Position numbers and translations under genes: made by a program. A stretch of DNA of 64,000 nucleotides from NCBI GenBank assembly GCA_949358305.1, contig OX442321.1, positions 2,691,605 through 2,755,604 on the forward strand, in the 5' to 3' direction. The notes beneath the pieces were generated by a model. The model saw only the letters and a list, made by a program, of their open reading frames with translations. It did no database searches and was not told the DNA's origin. Each line of letters begins with the position of its first letter. Positions within the stretch are counted from its first letter, which is position 1. This stretch comes from Strigamia acuminata. Lineage: Eukaryota; Arthropoda; Chilopoda; Geophilomorpha; Linotaeniidae. Shown here piece after piece: positions 2,526 through 54,827 of this stretch.

Positions 2526-3476
2526 GTAATGAGCCAAGAATAATTCTCTAGCTCACTGATGCTTAGACAAGACTTATCATAAAAAATACTTCTCAATTAA
2601 CTTAACTTACTAATTATTTATTCTGGCTTAGAATAAGAAGAAATTACAGTGATAGAAATTATACAGGTTAAAATAAAGATAGAATGAGTTGGAAAAAATA
2701 ATGAAATGTTTCGGATCACGGCGAAAACGTTGATTCGACGTTCTCGGCGTCCGGGCGACGATAACAACTCGTTCTCGTCGAGTTTCGGCTAACTCTTCGA
2801 CGCTCGTCTCGATTTTTGTCTTGGCGTCGCTCCACGGTGAAAACGGACTTATTCCGTTGCACTAAACCTCTACGAACTCGTCTGGTACGAATCGGCTCAC
2901 GTCGACTCGCTTGATCAACCGGACTCGTTCCGTCACTTCAAACTCGCTACTTCGCAACTCCGTCGTCGTGGCGACGTATTTGCGACTCTTTCGCTCAGCG
3001 TCTAGCCGGATTCCTTTCACGGCAAGGCGAAATCTCAAGCCAACAATGAGCAGGCTCAAGAATAGGAAAAATCCCACCGCACGTGAAATGCGGCAAGACC
3101 GAAATCCCGCTGTTGTCTGTTACAACTCTTTGGGATTTCCTTTGGCTCCCGCCGACACCGTATGCTTATTGGCCATTGACGCAGATCTATGACGAAACGC
3201 TGTGCTCGCTCGAACTGTGCCCGCAGAAGGTTCCGCACATAATGAAGACGTCTGTCAAACACTTCCCTGCCGACCATGTGAGGTCTGACAACCCTCAGAA
3301 CGTACAGATCCTGGAGAATGCACGGAAGGTTACGCTAGAATGCTTTTCCTACAATCCCTTAAAAACTGTTGGAATTCTGTTCGCAAACCGACAAAAAATG
3401 AAGCTTGAGAATTTATTTCTTCTCCATTTCCAATTGGCAGCGTTGACGAATCACTGACCATTTCTGTCGGTGTCAT
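2526..3476. other. GC-richer unidentified sequence, probably retroelement remnant
   Basis: From about 2700 the composition changes to CG-rich, unlike its surroundings. Several short open frames exist on both strands and none matches a domain I can name. On the minus strand it continues the gag-like frame at 3477-3713 through frameshifts, so it is most simply the rest of that decayed LTR element. No confident gene. Confidence 0.35.
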
Positions 3477-3713
3477 TCATGTCGCTGTTGTATTCACTAC
3501 AATTGGCTGCACCATCGTGTTAATTGGACTCGCGACTGTTGTTAATATGTCGGTTGAAAATGTCACTAACGGTGAAGTCGTAACATTCACAACCGTCGTC
3601 GTCCTCCCTTGCCTTTTATTGTCGCGCATTACTTCCATTAATTCCAACTCGTTTATATCAAAAGGATTCATGGGTAGATATAAAATACCATTGCCTTCTA
3701 ACGGCGACGCCAT
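3477..3713 (-). pseudogene. Possible gag start of a decayed LTR element
   Basis: A 78-codon minus-strand frame opens with Met-Ala-Ser-Pro-Leu. It lies just inside a candidate LTR (3821-4373) and a primer-binding-like TTGGCGAGCTAG next to it, which is where gag should begin. After the stop, related frames continue with shifts and stops. No Gag motif is recognisable, so the call rests on position. Alternative: a chance frame. Confidence 0.3.
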
Positions 3714-4491: not shown

Positions 4492-7400
4492 CTAGGGTGG
4501 TCCGAAAGCTGCTGTAATCTGGGTTCCCCCCACTTCTGTCACTACCAACGGCTCAGGGTCAACCGGTGTTGAGAATTTATTTATTTTGGGTTGTTTTACA
4601 AGCACACGATCCCCTATCTCCAAGCCATGATCTTTGGCGTTACGCCGTTCGTCCGCATCTTCCTTCATCTTACTCTTTCCTTGTAGATCCTTATCTCGCA
4701 AGTCTACATCATCCACTGCACTCCAAATTGAAGGTAAATGCGTGTGCATTTCTCGACTGTATAATAACTCCGCTGGCGGCCTCCCAGTTGTGCAATGCGG
4801 GGTTGCTCGATAATTTAGAAGAAACTCCTGCATTTCCCGGACCCAATCACGCCCCTCCACCACCGCTGCTCGAATCGACTTATTCAGCATACGCATAAAG
4901 CGTTCCGCTTCACCACTTCGGGCCACAGGGGCGTAACCTATCGATGCACAACACCAAACTCCCGCAAAAATTCCGCAAACTCACGAGACGTGAAGGGTGG
5001 ACCATTATCTGACTTTTACATCTGCGGGAGACCCAACTCCCAAAATCGTCTCTCCAAATTCGCGCACACAGGGCCCGCCGCTGTCGATGAAATCTTGTCG
5101 ACAAATGGGAATCTAGAATATTCGTCGATCAAGACAAATAATAAGGCCCCGTCCGGAAATGGGCCCAAAAATCCACCGCCAAATGCTGCCACGGCTGAGC
5201 CGGCAGTACAGTCATTCTCAACGGGTCTCTCACTGTCCTCGAAATATTTGCTTGACACGACAAGCACCCTGCGATCTTTATTTCCACTCGCCTATCTATA
5301 CCTGGAAACCAGACTTTCTGCCGAAGCAGTCTTGGTCTTAACGACACCTTGGTGGCCTCGATGAGCCAGGTCCACCACTCTGGATTGCAGGCTCCTCAGG
5401 ATCACAATACGATCGCCCCGCAAAACAATCCGCCCTCTTCTGCCACCGCCAACTCGTCCTTAACCATTGCAAAAGGGCGCAACGCCTCCTCCTTCCACAT
5501 TTTCTGTGCTTCACCACCCACGCAACCCAGCGCCTGTCGCACTTTACACAATCCCGCATCTTGATCGGTCTCCGGTTGTACCTCTTCTTTCGTCATTGTA
5601 GTCGGCATCCTAGTCTGTACAACAAAATTTACATGTTCCTCCAACGTACCAACTCCTACTGTTTTCACGTTTGCTGACGGGTGACGTGACATGTAGTCAC
5701 TCGGATTGGTAGACCCCTTTGTGTGTATCACTTCAAAGTCAAACTGTTGGACACGTACGCACAATCGTTCCAATCTGACCGATGGTCTAGCTCGTCTGTT
5801 ATTCAGTATGCTAATTAAAGGCTGGTGATCTGTAAACAACACAAAATGAGTCCCGAACAAATACATATAAAATGCCTCCATGGCCCAGACCACAGCCAAC
5901 ATTTCCCGCTCTATCTGGGAATATCGTCCTTCTACAACCGTCAACGATCGACTTGCGTACGAAACGACCTCCACCACCGCTTGACCTTTTTGCAGCTGGG
6001 CCAAAATCGCTCCCAATCCTCCTGGGCTCGCGTCCACCTCAAGATGCAACTCTGCTTTGAAATCAAAATACGCTAATGTCCCTGCATCGCCAACTCCTTC
6101 TTAATCCTTCCCCATGCTTCCTGATGCAAAGACATCCACATAAAATCGGCGTTAGCTTTCTTGGTCAACTCACGCAAAGGTCCCGTTAATCCCGCCAAAT
6201 TCGGTATAAACCGACCGCAATAAATCACCATACCCAGCAAACTTTTAACTTCGGACACGCTGGCCGGCTACTTCATCTCTCTTATGGCCTCCACTCTCTT
6301 GGGATCGATTGAAATTCCCAACGCCGAGAACACATGACCGAAAAACACCACACTCCTCTTCCTAAACTCACACTTCCTTCCATTCACGGTAAGTCCCTTC
6401 TCCTGCAAACGGTCCAACACTTGATACATAACCACATCATGGCTCTGAGTCTGTTTGCCAACTAAAAATATATCGTCAGTTATATTGATTGTGCTCAAAA
6501 TACCTTCCAACGCTTGACGAATCTCATCCCGGAAACTCTCTGGCGCCGAACACAGGCCGAAAAACAACCGCTTAAAGCGGAACAAAACAACATGCGTAGC
6601 GAACGTCGTAATTTTCCTCGACTCTTCGTCTAGCTCTACCTGATGGAAACCGTTGTTTAAGTCCAGCTTCGAGAACCAAACTGCCCCCTCCGCCAGAGCG
6701 ACCACATCATCCAGCCTCGGCGAGGCATGTCGAAGGCGCTCGATGGCGAAATTCACTTCCCGCGCATCTATGCAAATTCTAATTGCCTCCAGATCCGGAT
6801 CCTTTAATTTTCGCACGCAATGGATGGGGGAAACCCATGGCGTGGGCCCCATGCTATCAACAACTCGTTCAATAATGTCCTCAGCCACCATCCTTTCCAA
6901 TTCGGCCTACACCTTTTTTCGTAAACTAAAAGGAATGGGCCGATAACGTTGCGCCACCGGAACGACTTCCTTCTTCATGTGAATATGCACTTGCCGCCCC
7001 TTCAGCTTGCCCACCCCATTAAATAACCTCGGGTATTTCGCTTTAATTTCACTATCCAAACTCTCCCCACCAACCGTACGCACCACCTGCACAAGACCCA
7101 ATCTCACCGACGCCTCATAACTAAGAAGTGACTCACCATCCACATCCGCCACGTATAATTCCACTTCCTCGCGCCGGCCTTCGTATTCTAACACTGTCCT
7201 CATTATTCCCAACAAAGGTAACGGTTCCCGATGACCATATGGCATTAAACGAGCCTGGCTCGGGCGCAAAAACGGTGGGGGTCGGATGGACCTATAAATC
7301 TCCCTACTTAACAAACTAACTTGGGCCCCTGAATCAATTCCGAACAAAACTGGCATTTTACACCGTCCCATAACGACCTTCACTCTCGGCATTTTTCGAG

Positions 7401-8343
7401 TCTCTTCTACCGATCCCACAGTTAATCCAAAAATATACTCATCTTCCTCACTTCCACCGGCCATTTCCACCTTAACCGCTCGCACCCTTTGTCCTCCCGC
7501 CATCGGATGTCCTCCACTCGACTTCGAGCAGCAAAATTTCACAAAATGTCCTCCTTTTCCGCAATTATGGCACTTTATATTCTTTGCCGGGCAAGGAGTT
7601 CCTTCTAGATGCGGCCACGCCCTCCCGCAATTAAAACATGAACGTGTACCTTCGCCTCTACTTGGTGACCTTGAAGAATCCTCACTCCTACCACTCCTTC
7701 GCACGGCATTCACCTCCAAACCACGCGATTCCACCACTGTAACCTTCTCCATGCGTTTTGCTTGCCATTCTGATGCCTCGTGACTTCTTCCAAAATCCAA
7801 CACGTCCTTCAGCACCCACGAACTCTCCCGCAGCGCTTGACGACGCAGCTTAGCCATGGCTGTACCGAAAATAATTTGTGACTTTAATTCTCGGTCCCGA
7901 TCCGCAAAATCACACCCGACTGCCAAATTTCGGAGTCGTGCACAAAACTGATCCGTTGTTTCCTCTGCTTCCGGCCTACTTGACCGGAACGAATACACGC
8001 AAAAATCCAAGCTCTTCTTTGGAGCAAAATATCCCGTTAAAGCAGTCTTTGCTGCTTCATATCCCGCCATAACTCCGGTCAACGTCGCAAAAATATCGTA
8101 AGCACTTTCTCCCACATAGTGCAATAACATGGCCCGCTTACGCTCGTCCTCACTAATCGCCGCCGCGGTCAAGAATACTTCAAATCTAACTAACCATTTA
8201 GTCAATCTCTGGTTCTGGGTGGCTGGTTCTTCATAAACATCAAATGGGATGACTCCCGATGCATGAATGGCTCCCGACGATAACGCTGCCATCGGAAATT
8301 GCCCTTCCTCCAACTTAGGCTTAGAAACTATGGGAAGCGCCAT
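4492..8343 (-). pseudogene. Broken gypsy gag-pol polyprotein
   Basis: The first frame (8343-6907) holds Gag, a zinc knuckle of the form C-x2-C-x4-H-x4-C, and the retropepsin motif Asp-Ser-Gly. It ends at an in-frame TAG just before reverse transcriptase. RT continues at 6900-6268 with the active-site motif altered (Thr-Asp-Asp in place of the Val-Asp-Asp of the intact relative) and a second stop follows. RNase H is at about 6049-5402 in a shifted frame. Integrase is spread over several frames between about 5560 and 4492. The intact relative at 23444-27652 has none of these breaks. The product cannot be active. Confidence 0.85.
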
Positions 8344-8476
8344 CTTGAATTCTCAAGCAAACGACCTTGCCAAGCAAACGACCTTGCCAGCTCAATCCAA
8401 TAAAACGACAAATTCCACAAAACTCACAGCATTAATGTCCATTCTGCATACTAAAATCCGCGATCCTCGTCGCCAA

Positions 8477-13022: not shown

Positions 13023-14045
13023 ATGGCGGTGCGTATATTACTTACTAGAAATACAACCACCGAGTTAATAACACAAAATATTTTCACAGGATCATATATT
13101 CATAAGTTACCGTCGATCCACTGGAAGTACCTTGGCCCGGTAGAATTAGGATTTCTACACACCACACTCCATCTTATACCAACTTTTCACTTTACATTTC
13201 AGTTTGCTCGAGGAAAAGTTGAAAGGCCGAAACTATACAGTTTTTATCGATCTTGAGGGACTCACGTCGGGTCGGTGGGACGAACAACTCTTGACGAAAA
13301 TTAAAGAAGCTAAAATTTTTCTTCTCGTTCTCACACCCAATGCGCTTGACAGATGCTTCAATGATAAAACCTGCCAAGATTGGTTACACAGAGTAAGAAA
13401 ATTCTCTTTTTCCATACACAGTACATATCTTGACTGTGGTTTTGCAACCGACAGGAAATAGCAGCCGCAATCACCAACAAGTGCAATATTATTCCAATTA
13501 CACACCCAGATTTCAGATTCCTGCTGGAGCTCAATACGACTCGTTACCTCAGACGGTTAAAGAAGCTTGTGGACAGCAAGGAATCCCGTAAGAATTATTT
13601 TAAATTTCTCCTTTTGCGTGGTACATCGGTAAGGGCTTTCAAGTGAATGTGAATACTCCGCCGAAAGCAGAAAATCCAACTCCAGGTATACATTTTAGCT
13701 TATGTTAATCACACATTTCACTAATAATTTTTCTTCAGCGAGAATTGCAGTTAAAGTCTATGTTATTGGTCGTGAGAGACCAATAAGGGTGCCATTGCTT
13801 GCCGGTCAATCCACAATCAAGGATTCAAAAAAGCAAATCAAGATCGACAAATGCTTCAAGAACGCAAACAACGCAATTTATCACGTAAATTACTTTCGTA
13901 TTGATTACTATCTAATGAATAGTAAATACCGGTAATTCCAATTTCTTTCCAGCAAAAAGATGAGGATGACCAATTAGAGCAATTAATTGATATTCACCAA
14001 TTAAGCAACGGGGATCAAATTCATGTTACCTTTGAAGCAGAATAA
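13023..14045 (+). pseudogene. TIR plus beta-grasp gene, broken copy
   Basis: This is a close paralogue of the intact gene at 20613. Exons 1 to 3 are preserved (13023-13028, 13090-13139, 13203-13392) and encode a SARM1-like TIR N-terminus up to Asp-Trp-Leu-His-Arg. Exon 4 (13455-13587) still opens with the glutamate that is catalytic in SARM1, but lacks one G near 13519 relative to the other copy and shifts frame. A deletion of about 430 bases then removes exons 5 and 6, the acceptor and the start of exon 7, joining the exon-4 intron to the middle of exon 7 near 13617. The beta-grasp exons (13739-13884 and 13953-14045) remain intact, with a TAA at 14043. A truncated TIR fragment could still be made; a full protein could not. 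Confidence 0.8.
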
Positions 14046-18807: not shown

Positions 18808-19026
18808 ATGAAGTCGTACCAGTTTCTTGTTGTTTTTCTAATCGTTTTGGGGCTGAATCAAGCGGCTGCAAAATGTTATTGGCTAGGAACAGCACCTCTT
18901 TGCGCTAAGGAAAAGTGCAATTACGGGTCTTACCAGTGCAAAACTGACAAGTCCGGTGATGGTAATACGTGCGTTACAGGAACCAAGGCTTACTGTTGTT
19001 CCTCACAGAGGGAATGTCCCTCTTAA
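18808..19026 (+). CDS. GTAP cysteine-rich secreted peptide (72 aa)
   Basis: An intact member of the family, and the reference copy here. The signal peptide spans residues 1-21 (hydrophobic FLVVFLIVLGL, ending AAA). The mature part has eight cysteines, with C-x8-C-x4-C-x6-C-x10-C-x7-CC-x5-C; the third gap is one longer than usual (AKEK). The core motif is CYWLGTAPLC. The start is fixed by the acceptor CAG five bases upstream and by paralogy. Polyadenylation signals follow at about 19036 and 19152. It lies 1.6 kb upstream of the intact TIR gene in the same orientation. It is presumably secreted. Function is unknown; antimicrobial, inhibitor or toxin-like roles all fit a small disulfide-rich peptide. 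Confidence 0.87.
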   Translation: MKSYQFLVVFLIVLGLNQAAAKCYWLGTAPLCAKEKCNYGSYQCKTDKSGDGNTCVTGTKAYCCSSQRECPS

Positions 19027-20612: not shown

Positions 20613-22062
20613 ATGTCGGTCCGTATATTACTTACTAGTAATACAACCACCGATTTAATAACAAAAAATATTTTTCACAGGATCATATATTCATAAGTTA
20701 CCGTCGATCCACTGGAAGTGAATTGGCCCGGTAGAATTACAATTTCTACACACCACACTCCATCTTATACCAACTTTTAACTTTACGTTTCAGTTTGCTC
20801 GAGGAAAAGTTGAAAGGCCGAAACTATACAGTTTTTATCGATGTTGAGGGACTCACATCGGGTCGGTGGGACGAACAACTCTTGACGAAAATCAAAGAAG
20901 CCAAAATTTTTCTTCTCGTTCTCACACCCAACGCGCTTGACAGATGCTTCAATGATAAAACCTGCCAAGATTGGTTACACAGAGTAAGAAAATTCTCTTT
21001 TTCCATATACAGTACACATCTTGACTGTCGTTTTGCAACCGACAGGAGATAGCAGCCGCAATCACCAGCAAATGCACTATTATTCCAATTATACACCCAG
21101 ATTTCATATTGCCTGCTGGAGCTCAATACAACTCGTTGCCTGAGACGGTTAAAGCAGCTTGTCTACAGCAAGGAATCACGTAAGAATTATTTTAAATTTC
21201 TCCTTTTGCAAGATTAATGTCGTCACTCTTCCCTCAAGATGGAGTCATGAATATCAAACCGCATGCATGGAGCAGTTGGTAGAGTACATGGGTGAAAGAG
21301 CCCAGCAAAAGAAAGAAACCGCAAAAAATAGTGCGTATACTATTTACTCCAACAGTCCAACATGTGAAAATTTTCCAATCATCTTTTTCCTAATCAGGTG
21401 ACAATGGAGGCGTTTATGTCCAAAACAGCGAGTTGAAAGCTGGAGGTGCGTATACAAAGAAAATTCAATTCAATTCACGGACCTGGACCCATCACGCAAC
21501 CACCCAATGCGCGATAAATTGTTATATTAATTCACCACCATTAGAGTTAATCGTGACAATACGGTAGCTAAGACAAAATTCCCCAAACCGCTTTTGATAT
21601 ATTTGCTTGCATTTTAATCGTAATTATATCCATTCAAAGGAGATATGTACATCGGTAAGGGCTTTCAAGTGACTGTGAATACTCCGCCGAAAGCAGAAAA
21701 CCCAACTCCAGGTATACATTTTAGTTTATGTTCATCACACATTTCACTAATAATTTTTCTTCAGTGGGAATTGCAGTTAAAGTCTATGTTATTGGTCGTA
21801 AGATACCAATAAGTGTGCCTTTGCTTGCCGGTCAAGACACAATCAAGGATTTAAAAAGGCAAATAAAGATCAACAAGATCAAGATTGCAGACAACGCAAT
21901 TTATCACGTAAATTACTAACGTATTGATTACTATCTAAAGAATAATAAATAATTCCAATTTCTTTCCAGCAAAAAGATGAGGATGACGAATTAGAGCAAA
22001 TACTTGATGCTCACCAATTAAGAAATGGGGATCACGTTCATGTTACTTTTGAAACAGAATAA
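20613..22062 (+). CDS. SARM1-like TIR, Gly/Asn-rich modules, beta-grasp protein (275 aa)
   Basis: Nine exons reconstructed by hand: 20613-20618, 20681-20730, 20794-20983, 21046-21179, 21239-21330, 21398-21445, 21640-21711, 21765-21907, 21970-22062. Every junction is GT-AG and in phase, giving 828 coding bases. The TIR covers about residues 3-150: IFISYRRSTGS at 5-15, VFIDVEGL, LVLTPNALDRC, DWLHR then Glu83, and WSHEYQ at 128-133. In SARM1 the glutamate at this position is the NAD-cleaving residue. Residues 158-197 are two Gly/Asn-rich modules (YVQNSELKAG; GGDMYIGKGFQVTV). Residues 198-275 form a ubiquitin-like beta-grasp domain without a C-terminal Gly-Gly. No ARM repeats, SAM domain, signal peptide or membrane segment is seen. 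By family knowledge it could hydrolyse NAD in the cytoplasm; activity and partners are inference. Exon 1 (six bases) is the least certain part. Confidence 0.83.
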
Positions 22063-22807
22063 TTAACAACATTCATCACATGATTAAATCAATTCAAATT
22101 CGTAATAAATCTTACTAAAGCTGCTGAATCACCATGCATCCTCTTTTCATCGCACCTGTCCACATTATGAGGTCTTAAATCTTTAAAATTTGAAGTTTTG
22201 CTTGTGATGCTCTGATGAGTTTCAGAAATATTTAAACACTTTATTAAAACACCCTGTATATATTTTTATCTGGCCTTTGGTAGATTATTCAACTTGACAT
22301 CGTTATCTGAACAAATATTTTCTTTTCAACGTCCGTAAAAAAATTATTCTTTCATCATTTGTTCATGGATAAACTGTCACTATAGCTGCATTCAAAAATT
22401 AAAACATTTTGTGTTTCACTTCAATTTTAAAGAATCACAAAAATGTAAAAGATTTCTTAGTTTGGAGGGGGGAGGTGTGCCCCTCCAAGCCGTAAAAATT
22501 GATACCAAAAGCATCTTTTTTGTGTGCAAAGGTTTCTGTATTGCCAATATTCCAGCATTTTATATATTTTTATATAGTTTATTAAGAAAACCGACTTGTT
22601 TACAATTGATATTACGTAATTATAAATTATGAATTCAATTCAATTCAATTTTGAATTTATTACAAGTCTAAATATTGAAAATGATGTCTCTACAAATATT
22701 CAAGCTAAAAAAATGAATTACAATTCTATTAATTTTACTGGGTTAACTTTAACGTGAGGTATTTAGATAATTGAAGAAAAAAAAACTACCAGGAACAACG
22801 GTAACGT
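22063..22807. other. Spacer between the TIR gene and the next paralogue
   Basis: AT-rich. No promoter-like or coding element is clear until the TATA box at about 22808. A short frame at 22411-22632 has no recognisable features and is not supported. Confidence 0.4.
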
Positions 22808-22910: not shown

Positions 22911-25900
22911 ATGAATGCACGTAAGAACTTTTTCTCCTTTTCTTTTCCTATTCACAAATGATTTGACATTTAGACAACAAAGATGTCGGAAGGGTCGACC
23001 AAAAGGTGGAAATTCACGGATCTAGCTACATGGGTACGTAACATAATTAATAAAAACAATAATAATCGCAATATACACTCATACTTTACTAATCGGTTAG
23101 GTCCTGTTACCACCGAACACATTGCTCGCGACTCTAATAAAGCCGGAGGTATATGTATATTAATTTTCCTATTTCATAGAAATTTGTAATCTAAACACAC
23201 AAAAAATGAGAAAAGGCTAAGAAACAGAAAAACTAAGACCTTCGTAGGTCCTAAGTGTAGAATAGTGAATAAAAGACACATCCACACCGGTTCAATGCTA
23301 GCTAGCAAGTAAACTTTATTACACTTAACGACCTTCAACTCGGCCTTGAACTCCGCGCCATCTAACGGCGCATTTACACAATACTACATCCCTCCCTTAT
23401 CCCAAAATGAAAAACATCAACAATTAGCAAAAACAAAAACAAATCACTTCCTCTTCCTAGCACACATGTCATAGTCCTGCTGCCACGACGGCTTCTTTTT
23501 GTCTCTTTTTGATCTTCGCGGTGTAAAGGGAATATCCACGGGGCCCGGTGCAACCGGAGCTATCACCGGCTCCACCAGCGCTGGGGCCGTCACCGGCTCC
23601 ATCCTCTCCTCCTCCGACGACTCGGACATCTCACTCTCATCACCTTCCTCCGTTCGGCTCTCCCCCAGTCTCTCATCCTCCTCCTCATCCTCACCACAAC
23701 GATCCATCCTCACCTCCTCCTTTAAACGCATCTTTTTAAAGAAGGACGAATTTCGTATCACACTCTGTCCTCTCCTATCTGCTGTCACCCGTGATCCCAC
23801 CACCGACGTCACCACGAATGGTTCCGGGTCGTATGGCGTGGTTAGTTTGTTGATTTTCCTTCTTTTCAACAATACCACGTCACCCACCGCCAACCCGTGT
23901 CCTCGCGTGTGTCTCCTTCCGTCAGCCAATCTTTTCATTTCCGCTTTCTTATTCCTGTCCCGTTGTCTCATTACTTCATCATCTAATTTTGCAAACTGCT
24001 GTGGCAGTCTCGTTTTGATTGGCCGACCATATAACGCATCGGCCGGCGGGACCCCCGTCGTCGAATGAGGAGTTGCCCTGTAATTCATCAAAAATTCATA
24101 TATTTCATCATACCACTTGCGCTCCTCTGTGACTGCTGTCAAAATGGCCTTATTAAGTGTCTTCATCAGGCGCTCAACTTCTCCGTTTGCCTCGGGCCAC
24201 AGCGGCGTGACCCGGTGATGTCGCACGCCCATCTCGCCCAAAAAATCCGCGAACTCGTTAGACGAAAACGGCGGCCCGTTGTCGGACTTCAGGACCTCCG
24301 GGACGCCCAGCTCCGAAAAACGCTTCCTGAGTATCGCCACTACGTTCCGCGCCCCCGTCGACGACACGCCGTCAACGAAGGGGAACCGCGAATACTCGTC
24401 AACCACGACGAACAGCATTTTTCCGTCGGGAAACGGTCCCAAGAAATCGACTGCTATCTTTTGCCATGGGCGATCTGGCAGATCAGACATCTCGAGCGGG
24501 GTCCTCGCCTTTACCGGCACACTTGCCTGGCAAGGAATGCAACCCGCGATGAGTCTTTCCACTTGAGTGTCCAAGCCCGGATACCAGACTTTCTGGCGCA
24601 ATAGCATCTTGGTTTTCACCACGCCCTGGTGCCCACGATGCGCGATTTTCACTACTTCGTCCCTCAAAGACGTTGGCACCACAATTCGGTCGCCTCGGAG
24701 AATAATCCCGTCCTCAGCAATCGTGAATTCGTCGCGCAGCATCCTGAAAGATTTTAAACAGTCATCCTTCCATAATTTTTCTGACTCACCATCGTTCTGT
24801 CTTAAAGCTCGCTGTAGCATTTTCAAACTGGGGTCCTCTTTCGTGCACTCTGCTATTCTCGCCCGTGTTAACGACTTAGGTACTCGTGTCCTCACCACAA
24901 AATTAATATAGTTTTCCAAAGTCCTCGACATCACGCCGTCACTCTTCCCTTCACTGCCCGCATGGCGCGACATGTAGTCGCTAGGATTAGAGCTGCCCTT
25001 TGTAAATTTTACCTCGAACACGTACTGTTGTATCCGTAAGCAGAGTCTCTCTATCCTAGCTGAAGGCCGTGCTTTCCTGTTACCAAATATGCTTATCAAC
25101 GGCTTGTGATCTGTAAATAGAAGGAAATTCACTCCGTACAAGTACAAGTAGAAGTGTTCAATGGCCCACACGGCCGCTAAAGTTTCGCGCTCGATTTGCG
25201 AGTATCTGCTCTCCACATCGGTTAATGCTCGGCTGGCGTATGCCACAACTCGCGGCTCGACCTCGCCGCTCCTAACTTGAGCCAAAATGGCCCCCAGTCC
25301 ATTCGGCCCCGCATCCACCGTCACGTGTGTCACCGCTGCCGGGTCATGGTACGCCAGAATGTTCTTATTTCCCAGCTGTTTTTTAATGCTGGTCCACGCC
25401 TTTTGGTGCTTCTCCTCCCATTGGAACCTCCCATTCGAACGCCTAGTCAAGTCTCTCAGCGGCTTCAAGGTCTCCGCCATATTCTCAATGAAACGTGCGC
25501 AATACACTACCATGCCTAACAAGCTCTTTACCTCCGTCACCGATTTTGGAATCTCCATCCTTTCTATCGCTTCTACCTTTCGCGGGTCGATTGCCACCCC
25601 GGCCGCCGAAAACACGTGGCCAAAAAACACGATCTCGTCCCGGCGCACCTCACATTTGTCCTCATTTAGGGTCAAACCCCTTTCTTCTAGCCGCCGCAAA
25701 ACAGCGTGTATCGCTGCATCGTGTGTTTCCACCGTCTTGCCTACAATAAATATATCGTCGACAATATTAATACAGTTTGACAGCCCCTCAATTACTTGTC
25801 GAACGGTGTCCTGAAATAATTCAGAAGCCGAATTAATACCAAATAACAGTCTTTTAAACCGGAATAGTCCCACATGAGTCGCGAAAACCGTATATTTCCG

Positions 25901-28900
25901 CGACTCCTCGTCCAGTTCGACCTGGTTGAAACCATGGTTCAAATCCAATTTGGAAAAATATCTTGCCCCTTCTGCAAGCGCCACTACGTCTTCTAATCGA
26001 GGCGAGGTATGGCGCACTCTTTTAATGGCCTTATTACCCTCTCTAGCGTCGACGCACATACCTATGGCGTTGGGGTCCGGGTCTTTTGGTTTATCGACGC
26101 AGTGGATCGGTGAGACCCAGGGCGTCGGGCCCATCCCCTCGTCAATCCGTTCGATCACGTCCATGCGTAAAAGTCTTTCAAGTTCGTTTTCAACCTTCTT
26201 CCTTAATCGAAACGGCAGCGGGCGGTAGCGCTGGGCGACTGGAGCCACTTCCTCATCTACATGCAAATGAATCTGATAGTCTATTAGCTTACCGACCCCT
26301 CGAAACAGCTTTGGATACTGCCGTTTAATTTCCTCCTCGATCGTTGACTTTTTCACGTTGTTCACCATCTTCACGATCCCCATCTGCTCCGCCGTGTCAT
26401 AATTCATCAACGATGCGCCCGGGCGATCCACCACGTACGCTGTTATGCACGTTTGCTGTCCCTCGTAATGGAGCACCAGCTCCGTACGCCCGAGAAGTGG
26501 CAATGGCTCATCCGACCCGTATGTCAGCAATTTCGCACGACTTTCCATCAATGTCGGTTTCCGCTGCATGGCTCGGTAGTCCTCCCTGCCCAAAATATTC
26601 ACCGACGTCCCGGAATCCACGACGAATCTTGTGCACTTACTCTCCCCTCCTATCGTTAGACGTACTTCCGGCATCTGTGACCTTCCTCTCTCTCTCTCCG
26701 CACACATTCCGATCATGAACAGTTCCTCATTATCGCTCTCCTCGTTGTAAATACGCCCCACGATGTTTGCTTTCTTATCGGCGCCTCCCCCGTCGCTCCT
26801 CTTCCCTCGACAAAAACGCACGAAATGTCCCACCTTTCCACATCCTCGACACGTCACGCTCCTCGCCGGGCATTCCTGTGGGGGCGCGTGAGGCCACGCG
26901 CGCCCGCAATTAAAACATTTCCTATTTCCGAAATTTCTGAGCCCACCTGATCCGCTCTGAGCCGCTGCCACCATTGGCTCATTCCGTCGAGTTTCCGCGT
27001 TGCTGTTAGCTCTCTTCCTCGCTTCAATCGGCGCTCGGACCCAATTAACGTCACCTGTTGTTTCCTTCTCGCCTCCCTCCATTTGCTTAGCCTGGTACTC
27101 TGACGCCTCGTAACCTCGGCCTAAATCCAACAATTGTTTTAAAGTCAACGTATCATCCCGTAATCCCTGCCGTCGCAATCGATTCATGTTCGTGCCCAAA
27201 ATCAGCTGGGACTTTATCTCCCGGTCATCATCATGAAACTCGCAACCCACAGCCAGCTGTCGGAGTCGCATTTGGTATTTGTCCAGGGATTCTGTCACTT
27301 CCTGGCGAGATACACGAAAAGTATAAATACAGAACTGCATGTTCTTACCCGGAACGAAATATTTCGTCAGCGCCTCCTTAACCGAATCAAAGTTCCTATC
27401 CTCCTCCTCTATCGCGAGCGTCTCGTAAATGGAGAAAACCTCTTCACCTGCTTGATGAAGGAGCGTCGCCATTTTCCTCCCGTCATCCTTAATTCCAGCC
27501 GCGACTAAAAACATTTCAAGTCTACTTAACCATCTCTTCCACCTTTGGGATTGTGTGGTTGCTTCACCATGTACGTCAAACGGCGGGATCCCCGCCGTGC
27601 GTAGAAAACCTGCCACGCCTCCCGTTTCGTCCGCCATGACACCGCCACTCACAACACACGATGCAAAGTCACAAAATCCAGAATGAACCGTCCATTCACC
27701 ATAAAATGTTCACTCGCACCCGCATATCACATACAAAGTCCAATAAAATAAAATTTCCCTCGTCGCCAATGTAGAATAGTGAATAAAAGACACATCCACA
27801 CCGGTTCAATGCTAGCTAGCAAGTAAACTTTATTACACTTAACGACCTTCAACTCGGCCTTGAACTCCGCGCCATCTAACGGCGCATTTACACAATACTA
27901 CACTAAGCACTCTGCCTGGTTGGCCTTATGGATGCAGTGGCCCATATACTTACGCTTACAAGGAAAGAGACGTTACCAAACACACAAAAGAAATAACTAA
28001 TATTTTAACCGTAATAGTTCACACTTAATGAAAAATAGAATGGTGTAAATAAAAAACATTAAACCATGCAAAAAATTATTAAAATTAGAACGTAACCGAG
28101 AATTTACACCGATATCGCATAAAGATAAAACCAACAAAGATCAATGAATGATAAGGGGTTTCATTAAATGAGCGATTAGTTGATTACTTTGATTAGTCGA
28201 TTACTTGAAATTTGGACTAACATTATATTTTGTTGGTTGGTTAGGCGATGTCAAGACCAAACATATTACAGGCAACGTTATTAAAGCCGGAGGTGCGTAT
28301 ATTAGTTTTCCTACTCCACGTCAATTTTCAATCAAAATATGCGAAAAACCTCAAACTAGTAAAGTAAATACTGGAGGTTTAGATAAAATGATGCAAAAAC
28401 AGCTTTCAACCACCAAATTAATCAAAATTTCATTTAATTTTATTTGATTATTGTACAGTAATCATATGTTTTATGTATAGGAGATGTCATGACAGGTACT
28501 GGATTTCAATCAACCAAAACATACCACGCGCCAGCAATTCCAACTGAAGGTGTGAATGTGTGTCTACATTGTATGTGTTTTCACATTTGGTCTGTTGTCT
28601 CTTTTCAGGTGGAATTAAAGTTAAACTCATTGTAAAGGGTCGTATAAAAAGTCCTTTCCTGCCAGCAGGTAAACATACGCTCAAGGATTTGAAAAAACAA
28701 ATCGCAGTCGACAAATGCATCGATAACGTGGAAAATGCAATTTTTCAAGTAAAGAAATTCACATTTCTCATTATAATCAACTGAAATAAAAAATATTTGC
28801 AACAAATTTTTTCTTAACAGTTTGAAGACGATGAAGGTGAATTGTGCGACAGTCAACCGTTAAAAAATGAAGACAGAATTCTCGTCACCTATGACCCATA

Positions 28901-30256: not shown

Positions 30257-30478
30257 ATGAAGCCGTACCAGATCCTGTTTGTTTTTCTGATTGTTGTGGG
30301 CCTGAATGAAGTGATGGCTGGATGTCATTAGGACGGAACTGCCCCGGTATGTGAAGGCAGTTGCGATTATCCTTTAAAACTTTGCAAATATGACAAATAC
30401 GGCGATGGTAAAAAGTGTAAATGGTCGGGATACAAGGCGTACTGTTGTGACGCTCACACAGACTGTCCTCCTGATTGA
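30257..30478 (+). pseudogene. GTAP peptide copy with TGG to TAG nonsense codon
   Basis: The frame is complete from ATG at 30257 to TGA at 30478 and keeps the signal peptide and all eight cysteines. Codon 25 is TAG (30329-30331) where every other copy has a Trp codon or, in one case, a related aromatic context. One base change explains it. A one-residue insertion (Lys) before the Trp-Ser-Gly motif is also seen. Promoter and splice sites remain. It is most likely a recent pseudogene; readthrough is possible but unsupported. Confidence 0.75.
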
Positions 30479-31035
30479 GTAAATAATTTACTTATATTTG
30501 TCGATGATAAATACTGAACCACTCGGCTATGAATGTACTCCAAACTATATAATTGAATATTTGAATTATGTAACTCAAACCAATCGACAAATAAAATTTA
30601 AAAGATTAATTTTGTGTATTTTCAACTCTTTTGTCTCTACATTTTACAACTGTTTTTTCCCCCATACAAACACTTATAAAAAAAAAGGTGCATCTTACAA
30701 TCGAAGAAATAAGGTATTACTAACGCGCATGCGTGTGGGCAGCTGAGACCTGAATGATTGTCCAAAGGAGCATGCGCAATTGACGTTATTGTAAAAAAAA
30801 ACTAACTTCTGCAAAATACAACGCAGAAAACATCACATCCTGAAGTGAAAACAAGGTTATCAACTGAATACATTTAAGCAGATTTGTCTTAACCAATTTG
30901 AACGCACCAAATGAAACGAATTTAAAGCGACTTATTTTTCTGCAAATTTCATCGTTCATCCGGAAGAATAAAATTACTGAAAAAATAACTGATAAGACTG
31001 TTAACCGTTTCCTTCGTGTGACGTTATTACACAAA

Positions 31036-31639
31036 CAAGTTGAGTCAGAATCAACAAACCAACGAAATGGGCGACAGTATTTACTTTTTGATTACTTTAA
31101 GCCAAAAAACCAACAGTATGTCCTCCCAAATTATTTTACATTCATATTTCAGAGGCTAAAGGGTGACATTTGGAAGTGACACCATCAAAGCTAAAGGTTT
31201 CCCATCCAATCACACAATTTTTAGTTAGTAGTACACACGTTTCATCTTTTTTAGGTTCCAATTGCAGGAAAAAGACCATGGATTTATTGCAGAAGAAAAA
31301 AGACCAACTGATGTTATATTTTGTAATGTATAAACTATATAGTACACTTCAATTGATTGATTTTCTTCCTTTTTTCAGTTGCAATTACTGTTTTTATCGT
31401 TTTTGAGGAGCGTACAATCAAAGTGCACCTTCCTGCAGGTAAAAACACGCTCAGGGATTTGAAACAACAAAATAAATCCGATAAATGCATCGATAGGGAT
31501 ATGGATTACGCGATTTTCGAAGTAAAATATAATAAATTAGTTATCAGTAAGCAAAAAAAAATAATTAATAAATCAAAATTGTATCTTCTAGGATGCTGAA
31601 TCGATTCATTTCTCTCCCAGTTACCCACTAAGCGAGTAG
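31036..31639 (+). pseudogene. Decayed Gly/Asn-rich plus beta-grasp gene
   Basis: Recognisable parts, in order: a relic of the type-1 module near 31038-31085 (VESESTNQ); a relic of the type-3 module near 31160-31190 (GDIWK then a stop); an intact-looking beta-grasp exon at 31379-31521 (LPAGKNTLRDLKQQ; 143 bases like the others); and a last exon at 31592-31639 that keeps its splice acceptor but has diverged and stops after 15 codons, losing the final strand. No start exon was found. The gene is dead, but its order matches the intact paralogues. Confidence 0.6.
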
Positions 31640-42447: not shown

Positions 42448-43749
42448 ATGAGCGGAGGTAAGAATTTTTTCTCATTTTCTTTTGACATTTGATATTTAGA
42501 CATCAAAAATGTCGAAAAAGTTTACTCATCAAAGTAAATAGCTATGTGGGTATGTGACGTGAGCGTCTTTTCTTTTTAAAACAAAATAAACAGATATTTA
42601 AAAGTAGGCCTAAACGTATTCTTAAAATTACATTTACATTTTTTGGTTGATTAGACACTACTAACACCACCACAAACATTAGTGGCGATTTAAACGAGGC
42701 TGGAACACTTTTACTTTCCTCTCCTATTTTTAATATATAAATATTAAGAGATATATTTAATACACCAATTACTGAATCCTGCACAATTTATATGCATTTA
42801 TCATGACTTATTATGCGTAGGAAAAATCAAGACAGAAGGCGGATCCACAGTGACTAATAAAAACATCGGTGAGACAGCAAACGCAGCTCAAGGTGTGTTT
42901 TCAGTTTTCACATAGTTTGTTTATCTTCACACATTTCGTACAACTATTTTTTCTTTCAGAAGAAATTTCGTTATAATAATAGTATTTTTATTATAATTTA
43001 TATTTTTTGCGTTTGGTTAGGCCATGGAAACGGTTCCCTACACGTTCAAAACAGCAATGTTGAAGCCGGAAGTGCGTATATTACTTTTCCTATTCCATCC
43101 CAATTTTTATTCAGAATAAGAGAAAAAGCTCAAAGAAGTAAACCAAATACTGGATGTTTCGATCAAAGCGTGGAAAAACAGTATTTAGCCACTATAAAAT
43201 CGATCAAAGTTTCATTTAATTCAATTTAAATTCTAGATTTTTAAAAAGTTATCAATTCTGCCCTTTAATTGTACAATAACCTATTATACTGTATACAGGA
43301 CATGTCTTTATGGGTCCAGGATTTGTAGCAACCTTGACAGAAGGAGCAGCGGCAACCCCAACTGAAAGTTTGTGTTTTTTTTTGTTATACTGCTCTTTGT
43401 GTTTACTTATTACGCATTTTGCGTAAAATTTTTTTTCAGCTAAGATTTCCGTTAAACTCGTTTTAATGGAAGGTGAAATATTACAAATGGATCTGCCAGC
43501 AAACAAAAACACGCTCAAGGATTTAATTGAGCAGATCAAAATCGATAAATGCTTGGATAATGTGGAAAATGCAATTTTTCAAGTAAATTAAATTCATATA
43601 TTTCTTATTATCGAGTGAAAAATTAATAAGTTTGAATAAATTCTTTTTGTTTACAGCAAAAAGATGATGATGATGATGTGGTGACATTAACTGCCAGCCA
43701 CCGATTGCAAGACAAAGAGAAAATTCAAGTCACCTTTAAAACAGAGTAA
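42448..43749 (+). pseudogene. Chimeric Gly/Asn-rich plus beta-grasp locus
   Basis: The 5' half resembles the 34489 gene: exon 1 at 42448-42457, a shortened and frameshifted type-1 exon at 42501-42550, a type-2 exon from 42655 that has lost its donor, and a type-3 exon at 42821-42892 (72 bases, in frame). A beta-grasp exon then begins at 42960 but breaks off after about ten bases of homology. The 3' half is intact and of another subtype: type-2 exon 43021-43071 (LHVQNSNVEAG), type-3 exon 43299-43367 (GHVFMGPGF), beta-grasp exons 43440-43582 and 43657-43749 with TAA. All usable exons are phase 1, so exon 1 spliced to 42821 and on to 43021 would restore a frame. Whether this happens is unknown. 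Treated as a pseudogene or rearranged gene. Confidence 0.65.
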
Positions 43750-54295: not shown

Positions 54296-54401
54296 TAAAC
54301 TCTTTTTGCTACAACGTATTGAAAACAAAAACCTTTTTTTCAACTTCAAACTACATAACTTTTACATTTAAATTTTTTCTTCTTCTTTTTTTATCAGCCT
54401 T

Positions 54402-54827
54402 ATGAAGTCGTACCAGTTTCTTGTTGTTTTTCTAATAATTATGGGGCTGAATGAAGTGGCTGCAGAATGTTATTGGCATGGAACAGCACCATTTTGTCGT
54501 GGCACTTGCCCCAGCGAGTACACCATTTGCGAATGGAACAAAGTTGGTGATGATGGTTTAAAATGCGTTGTCAATGACAAGTACTACTGTTGTCTCCCAG
54601 CCGATAAATGTGGTGCAGCCTTGCCCAAAAAAGTGGAAACAGGATGTTATTGGGATGGAACAGCTTTTCTTTGTAATGGCAAGTGCCCTCCCGAGTACGT
54701 CACTTGCACATCTGACATTCGTGGTGATGGTAGATTATGCTACTCCGGTACAAAGAAATACTGTTGTCTCTCAGAAGATAATTGTAGTACAGTCGTGCTC
54801 CAAACAGACATCAAGGCTGGCAATTGA
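54402..54827 (+). CDS. Two-domain GTAP cysteine-rich secreted protein (141 aa)
   Basis: The only copy with two tandem GTAP domains. The signal peptide is residues 1-21 (MKSYQFLVVFLIIMGLNEVA). Domain 1 starts CYWHGTAPFCRGTC and has one extra residue before the fifth cysteine. A short linker (AALPKKVETG) leads to domain 2, starting CYWDGTAFLCNGKC, and a ~16-residue tail. Each domain has eight cysteines in the family order. No intron separates the domains, so the duplication was within the exon. Domain 1 replaces the usual Thr-Gly with Asn-Asp before the double cysteine, so the domains have diverged. The 5'UTR intron is 54296-54397. It is presumably secreted; two domains would suit cross-linking or bivalent binding (inference). 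Confidence 0.85.
   Translation: MKSYQFLVVFLIIMGLNEVAAECYWHGTAPFCRGTCPSEYTICEWNKVGDDGLKCVVNDKYYCCLPADKCGAALPKKVETGCYWDGTAFLCNGKCPPEYVTCTSDIRGDGRLCYSGTKKYCCLSEDNCSTVVLQTDIKAGN

Follow-up and report, generated by a model that had tools for sequence, protein, structure and literature searches.

What can a SARM1-type TIR domain do when both the ARM repeats that hold it off and the SAM domains that assemble it are gone? The question is raised by a predicted gene in a 64,000-nucleotide stretch of the Strigamia acuminata genome (contig OX442321.1, positions 2,691,605 to 2,755,604, forward strand), here called the window. In this gene the TIR is followed by short Gly/Asn-rich modules and an orphan carboxyl-terminal tail. 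SARM1 activity goes up with TIR multimerisation, according to PMC8266388, so that a TIR lacking SAM needs some other assembler; the modules and tail are candidates.

The gene model is confirmed as a prediction. Nine exons join into an open frame of 275 codons, with a TAA stop at 22060-22062; all eight introns are GT-AG, and the exon phases fit (Table 1). The donor of the six-nucleotide start exon is unusual and weak. Comparable ATG mini-exons are present in the related copies at 13023 and at 2548k. Presumably, the gene is expressed.

Table 1. Features of the TIR-tail gene and its relatives (window positions)
Feature	Position	Strand	Content or basis
Start mini-exon (ATG TCG)	20613-20618	+	6 nt, donor GTCCGT
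TIR domain exons	20681-20730, 20794-20983, 21046-21179, 21239-21330	+	Pfam, phmmer, residue comparison
Gly/Asn module m2	21398-21445	+	Exon, phase 1 at both ends; profile match
Gly/Asn module m3	21640-21711	+	Exon, phase 1 at both ends; profile match
Tail domain, probable beta-grasp	21765-21907, 21970-22062 (including stop)	+	TIR-less profiles; exon 8 model
Polyadenylation-signal-like ATTAAA (22083) and AATAAA (22104)	22083-22109	+	3' of stop
Broken TIR-tail copy 2705k	13023-14045	+	Frameshift in exon 4 equivalent; lacks exons 5 and 6 and the beginning of exon 7
g22, TIR-less sibling, 151 aa	22911-28901	+	Start exon, m1, m2, m2, m3, tail
Tail fragment	31378-31530	+	Exon 8 only
g32, TIR-less sibling, 115 aa	32855-33476	+	Start exon, m2, m3, tail
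g34, TIR-less sibling, 145 aa	34489-35620	+	Start exon, m1, m2, m3, tail
g42, TIR-less sibling	42448-43749	+	First modules decayed; later m2, an m3 and tail readable

Residues 4-151 form a SARM1-type TIR. A phmmer search of solved structures returned 19 tir-1/SARM1 sequences (E 3.2e-35 to 6.4e-32), tir-1/SARM1 being the best match. Pfam finds TIR_2 alone in the 275-residue protein (residues 5-105, 50.2 bits); the model begins at the TIR, and ARM and SAM are absent from it. The preliminary description had made the same statement about ARM and SAM. It had also matched the TIR to SARM1 motif by motif, naming a placement outside the SARM1 group as evidence against itself. All of the motifs that it named are present, and profile search and trees both place the domain with SARM1.

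The same genome encodes two SARM1 genes in tandem on C9 (C9:6205001-6215000, minus strand): a conserved canonical SARM1; and SARM1b, a diverged ARM-SAM-TIR copy for which an Arm match and a SAM match were found. The TIR of canonical SARM1 shares 87% identity with an unnamed protein, 86% with a protein from the mite Medioppia, and 83% with one from the plant bug Apolygus. In a tree of 47 rows, SARM1b is joined by the TIRs of four C10 loci (support 99/95); four Toll-type TIRs from the same genome lie far away, and a Toll-type identity was rejected accordingly. A corrected repeat with 43 rows, made without those four Toll-type rows, again groups the four C10 TIRs with SARM1b (100/99); its sister side consists of 18 canonical SARM1 rows and one further row (97/86), and 19 rows, mostly unnamed and bacterial-looking, fall outside. 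The four C10 TIRs form a group excluding SARM1b in the larger tree (96/64), with branching inside the SARM1b group not resolved in the smaller one. By BLAST, the TIR is equally near to SARM1b (52.1% identity) and to canonical SARM1 (52.9%), each of these sequences carrying one wrong residue at a split codon. Compared by eye, three TIR introns have the same sites and phases in the TIR-tail gene, SARM1, and SARM1b. The group of C10 TIRs and SARM1b is thus SARM1-type, and is an old duplicate, or else a fast branch pulled towards the base of the tree; the likely ancestor of the C10 TIRs is SARM1b itself.

A genome search with the predicted protein returned a tandem family on C10, along with the two SARM1 genes on C9. 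About eight C10 loci bear a TIR: the TIR-tail gene, T2548, T2537, T2532, 2636k, 2678k, 2705k, and the pair 2590k and 2604k, which we infer to be a single locus. Two are clearly intact fusions, four are broken, and two are ambiguous. The second intact fusion, T2537 (C10:2537178-2538873), lies 175 kb from the TIR-tail gene and has nine exons, all in phase, encoding 355 residues: a TIR 65% identical to that of the TIR-tail gene (the compared T2537 sequence having one residue wrong at a split codon), followed by three module exons and the tail. In T2532 a TIR is possibly joined to a divergent tail, with no modules between them. It is not counted as an intact fusion, because no start exon was found and because its tail exons score below or near decoys in the profile test described below (2.3 bits against a best decoy of 13.8, and 8.0 against 6.7). 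The preliminary description, which treated a single gene, lacked this tandem family with its TIR-less siblings, and with other TIR copies that are mostly broken or doubtful.

Several TIR sequences lie apart from this family. A 34-residue TIR-like stretch on the minus strand of C8 (C8:3527583-3527681; 58% identical to the TIR-tail gene, E 4.7e-5) was left out of the locus count. The 237.5 Mb genome yields 59 TIR_2 matches, and open frames bearing a TIR, many of them 900-1100 residues long, form tandem arrays at C9 3.98-4.03 Mb, C4 14.1-14.2 Mb, and C1 around 36 Mb; these probably encode Toll-type receptors.

A family with so many broken members invites an alternative reading, in which the TIR-tail gene is the still-readable member of a short-lived tandem array with dying TIR copies, and encodes no working protein. 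An exon 4 frameshift and a deletion are common to copies 2604k, 2636k, 2678k, and 2705k, and 2604k is split from its likely front part at 2590k by about 13 kb. T2548, the nearest copy, has lost its exon 5 donor. The weak start donor of the TIR-tail gene itself, and its Leu104 (discussed below), point the same way. So do the point estimates of pairwise omega against T2548 (0.85 for the TIR and 0.76 for the tail, at dS near 0.15), which show little, and provide no evidence of constraint. Against decay, all nine exons of the gene are open and its introns are GT-AG; the more diverged T2537 is likewise intact; and TIR exon 3 has few amino-acid changes, with omega of 0.26 to T2548 and 0.06 to 2705k on three and one replacement changes, respectively. 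(The whole-TIR value for 2705k was left out, as it contains the frameshifted exon.) Between the two intact fusions, omega is 0.46 over TIR exons 3-4 and 0.50 over the tail, at dS 1.35; between the tails of T2537 and its TIR-less neighbour A2530 it is 0.28. Decay of this kind is unlikely, if the strongest of the alternatives. A separate observation concerns T2548 TIR exon 4, in which replacement changes exceed silent ones relative to the TIR-tail gene (dN 0.35, dS 0.24), next to a nearly fixed exon 3.

If the protein is made, is its TIR an enzyme? Primers for the E642A mutation of SARM1 printed in PMC8266388 read WVHKE, and also WSHEYQ. By this shared W-V-H-K-E motif, Glu83 of the TIR-tail gene corresponds to the residue mutated as E642A in that paper. 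The catalytic glutamate had been claimed as conserved, and it stands at residue 83 within the motif W-V/L-H-K/R-E. Also kept are Tyr9, Asp35, Gly42, Trp79, His81, His130, and Gln133. Across all six TIRs compared, the catalytic glutamate is retained, as are the residues matching W638, H640, H685, and the BB-loop G601. Position 104, which the preliminary description passed over, is leucine in the TIR-tail gene and tryptophan in each of the five other TIRs compared from this genome; tir-1 has phenylalanine there in the phmmer alignment. That tryptophan is, we assume, SARM1 W662, a residue presumably important in SARM1.

The TIR might instead act as a scaffold or inhibitor, dampening SARM1 by co-assembly or signalling through TIR-TIR contact only. 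Leu104 would suit such a role, as would the serine and glycine that T2537 has at the positions of SARM1 R569 and K628, respectively. Retention of the catalytic glutamate and its companions in six of six TIRs argues the other way, making this alternative rather unlikely.

The TIR-less members of the family are more numerous. Within 104,494 bases of C10, tail exon 8 occurs 18 times, always on one strand, between 2.50 and 2.735 Mb (two weak minus-strand matches were dropped from this count); further copies are one at 2495k, a candidate in T2532 on C10, and two on C1. Thirteen tail genes (11 on C10 and two on C1), plus a fragment, have no TIR in the DNA examined around them, flanks that often span only 1.5 kb. 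Four of these genes and a fragment lie within the window. The two C1 genes (C1:54046001-54055000, near 3442-3585 and 5134-5250) have a diverged tail, and one has a clear G-N-V-Y-K-G-D-G-F-V module.

Other elements are interspersed. An intron of g22 holds a Gypsy-type LTR element (window 23447-27709, minus strand) with one long gag-pol-like frame and repeats near 23.24-23.37 and 27.77-27.90 kb; a second Gypsy-like element at 4495-8352 (minus strand) appears by eye to be decayed, in several frames. Small genes for secreted cysteine-rich peptides lie among the tail genes: window 525; 18808-19026; 30258-30480; 36217 (minus strand); 40443; and 54372-54824. They share a signal-like start and the pattern CYWxGTAPxC ... 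GDGxxC ... YCC; the copy at 30 kb is interrupted by a stop, that at 54 kb has two domains, and neither of the two tested has a Pfam match. Such genes would fit an immune locus, and prove nothing.

The modules and tail constitute the shared part. In TIR and TIR-less genes alike, module exons are short, separate, and in phase 1 at both ends. Module 3 has a core of approximately G-D/N-h-Y/F-x-G-D/N-G-F/Y, and module 2 mostly terminates in A-G-G. Profiles built from TIR-less genes only were run on the exons of the TIR genes among 1974 decoy peptides. The tail exons of the TIR-tail gene scored 32.9 and 25.4 bits (best decoys 13.8 and 6.7), its m3 13.8 bits (best decoy 6.4), and its m2 13.6 bits (best decoy 7.4). 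The tail exons of T2537 scored 64.6 and 30.8 bits against the same tail decoys, values that are not independent, because A2530 sits in the profile. The 2548k m3 (7.3 bits) and the third m3 of T2537 (7.2 bits) barely exceed the best m3 decoy (6.4), and the 2548k m2 (4.0 bits) falls under the best m2 decoy (7.4). In alignments A1, A2, and A5, the exon joints of rows 2501k, 2557k, 2530k, T2537, 2535k, and g42 contain errors of one or two residues (wrong, missing, or extra).

Outside this genome the tail is an orphan: it has no convincing match in Pfam, NCBIfam, the PDB, or a search of 5.8 billion proteins limited to lengths of 0.55-1.75 times the query and to proteins sharing five-residue words with it. 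That search, made with the full protein, considered 1003 candidates and gave 97 matches at E up to 0.001. Most cover about half of the query, namely the TIR. The two whose coverage exceeds 90% end in different carboxyl-terminal parts, and for none of the 97 is the similarity to the tail better than chance. One, the bacterial-looking P0045, resembles the TIR-tail protein in combining a SARM1-like TIR with a small carboxyl-terminal domain, SH3_3 (E 8.4e-21, 92% coverage). A shared tail was considered for it and rejected: the tail alone gave E 0.34 among the 97 proteins, and the A5 profile at most 5.1 bits on them. Among the proteins so searched, none has the order TIR, modules, tail, in keeping with the earlier claim of novelty, nor does any title or abstract opening returned by literature searches describe it, that of the TIR atlas preprint PMC13142454 included. 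Two marginal matches were EAD11, to one of 14 tail sequences (E 0.02), and the FapA solenoid, to one TIR-less protein (E 0.045).

The preliminary description had called the tail a beta-grasp domain. What stands is the unit of modules and tail, now shared with other genes; the fold is probable: exon 8, the first half of the tail, has a predicted beta-beta-alpha-beta structure (mean pLDDT 79), part of the full beta-beta-alpha-beta-beta order of a beta-grasp domain, with no significant structural match. A model of the whole g22 tail, in which the intron was read as residues, was uninformative (pLDDT 51; no Foldseek match at E 0.001). Could the tail be a ubiquitin-like tag, setting the level or place of the TIR protein, with the modules as linkers? 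Exon 8 is modelled in beta-grasp order, and ISG15 and RAF Ras-binding domains are among its weak half-domain matches. To the ubiquitin-like and beta-grasp domains with which it might be compared (ISG15, DIX, Ras-binding domains), however, the tail has no sequence link; its profile gave nothing against one ubiquitin sequence, a weak test. The module pattern common to TIR and TIR-less genes also goes beyond what linkers need. A tag is a doubtful reading, less favoured than a scaffold or inhibitor TIR.

How the two halves came together is suggested by their exon ends. In SARM1b the last TIR exon extends to the stop; in the TIR-tail gene a phase-1 donor stands there, making splicing to the phase-1 modules possible. 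The last TIR exon of T2537 runs on into sequence resembling the first exon of A2530, which has the same module array as T2537 (the arrays are 57% identical). Such a junction suggests that a tail gene acquired TIR exons. (Within T2537, the 66-nucleotide intron that separates the last module from tail exon 8 is open in frame, and its retention would keep the protein readable.) It is highly improbable that the TIR exons come from one gene and the tail exons from its neighbour: although the joins are predictions from DNA, and the TIR frame of T2548 would stop soon after its lost donor unless an upstream GTGAAA, which could preserve the frame, were used, the TIR-tail gene and T2537 both join in phase, and the T2537 TIR exon itself continues into A2530-like sequence.

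These observations suggest a model, favoured here but held tentatively, at somewhat less than an even chance. SARM1-type TIR exons would occupy the place where the TIR-less family has a ten-nucleotide start exon, spliced through the phase-1 donor to the modules and tail of that small family. The TIR would be an NAD-cleaving effector that works when TIRs pack together. With the ARM off switch and the SAM assembler gone, the short modules, the tail, or both may take over packing, by binding their own copies and those of the TIR-less siblings. The siblings could then be nucleators, adaptors, or decoys, which seed, sense, or damp assembly. Self-association of modules or tail is the presumed step on which the model turns, and a role in defence or cell death may follow from it.

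This arrangement departs from SARM1 and tir-1, the ARM-SAM-SAM-TIR NAD hydrolases, which it resembles in TIR sequence, catalytic glutamate, and the intron sites of the genome's own SARM1 genes. It has neither ARM nor SAM, but Gly/Asn modules and an orphan tail instead, in a tandem array with TIR-less siblings. In logic only, it resembles the amyloid signalling pairs (HELLP/PNT1, BASS, RHIM), in which a short motif is shared by an effector and neighbouring effector-less genes. Accounts of the fungal HELLP/PNT1 type and bacterial BASS describe an amyloid motif recurring in adjacent effector and receptor genes, and BASS motifs with bacterial TIR domains too (PMC7889193; PMC9815663). Here, modules are present in the TIR-tail gene, T2537, and TIR-less genes alike. 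Unlike the motifs of those pairs, these modules precede a probable folded tail, and the likeness is known from genes alone; membership is not claimed. The modules are not curated RHIM motifs: Pfam gave no RHIM or prion-domain match in four TIR-less proteins (E up to 10) or in the TIR-tail protein (E up to 1). Nor did Pfam scans of four siblings find an NLR or other nucleotide-binding oligomerisation partner.

A bolder version of the model, unlikely as it stands, is a signalosome invented in animals: an NADase without ARM or SAM, fired when orphan Gly/Asn beta-arch modules and a beta-grasp tail assemble homotypically; with diversified TIR-less siblings that nucleate, sense, or act as decoys; and convergent with the fungal and bacterial amyloid-motif effector pairs. 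The preliminary description is partly supported as a whole. Its new class of animal TIR effector holds for one genome so far, and the activity and control that it describes are presumed.

If expressed and active, the protein would show that exon shuffling can rewire the domain of a conserved nerve-death enzyme, placing it in a tandem family that keeps changing and leaving its assembly to a part of the protein unmatched in the searches made. It would be a natural SARM1-type TIR free of ARM and SAM, in which one could ask how little assembly is enough to switch the enzyme on. Moreover, the TIR-less siblings make the question of assembly testable.
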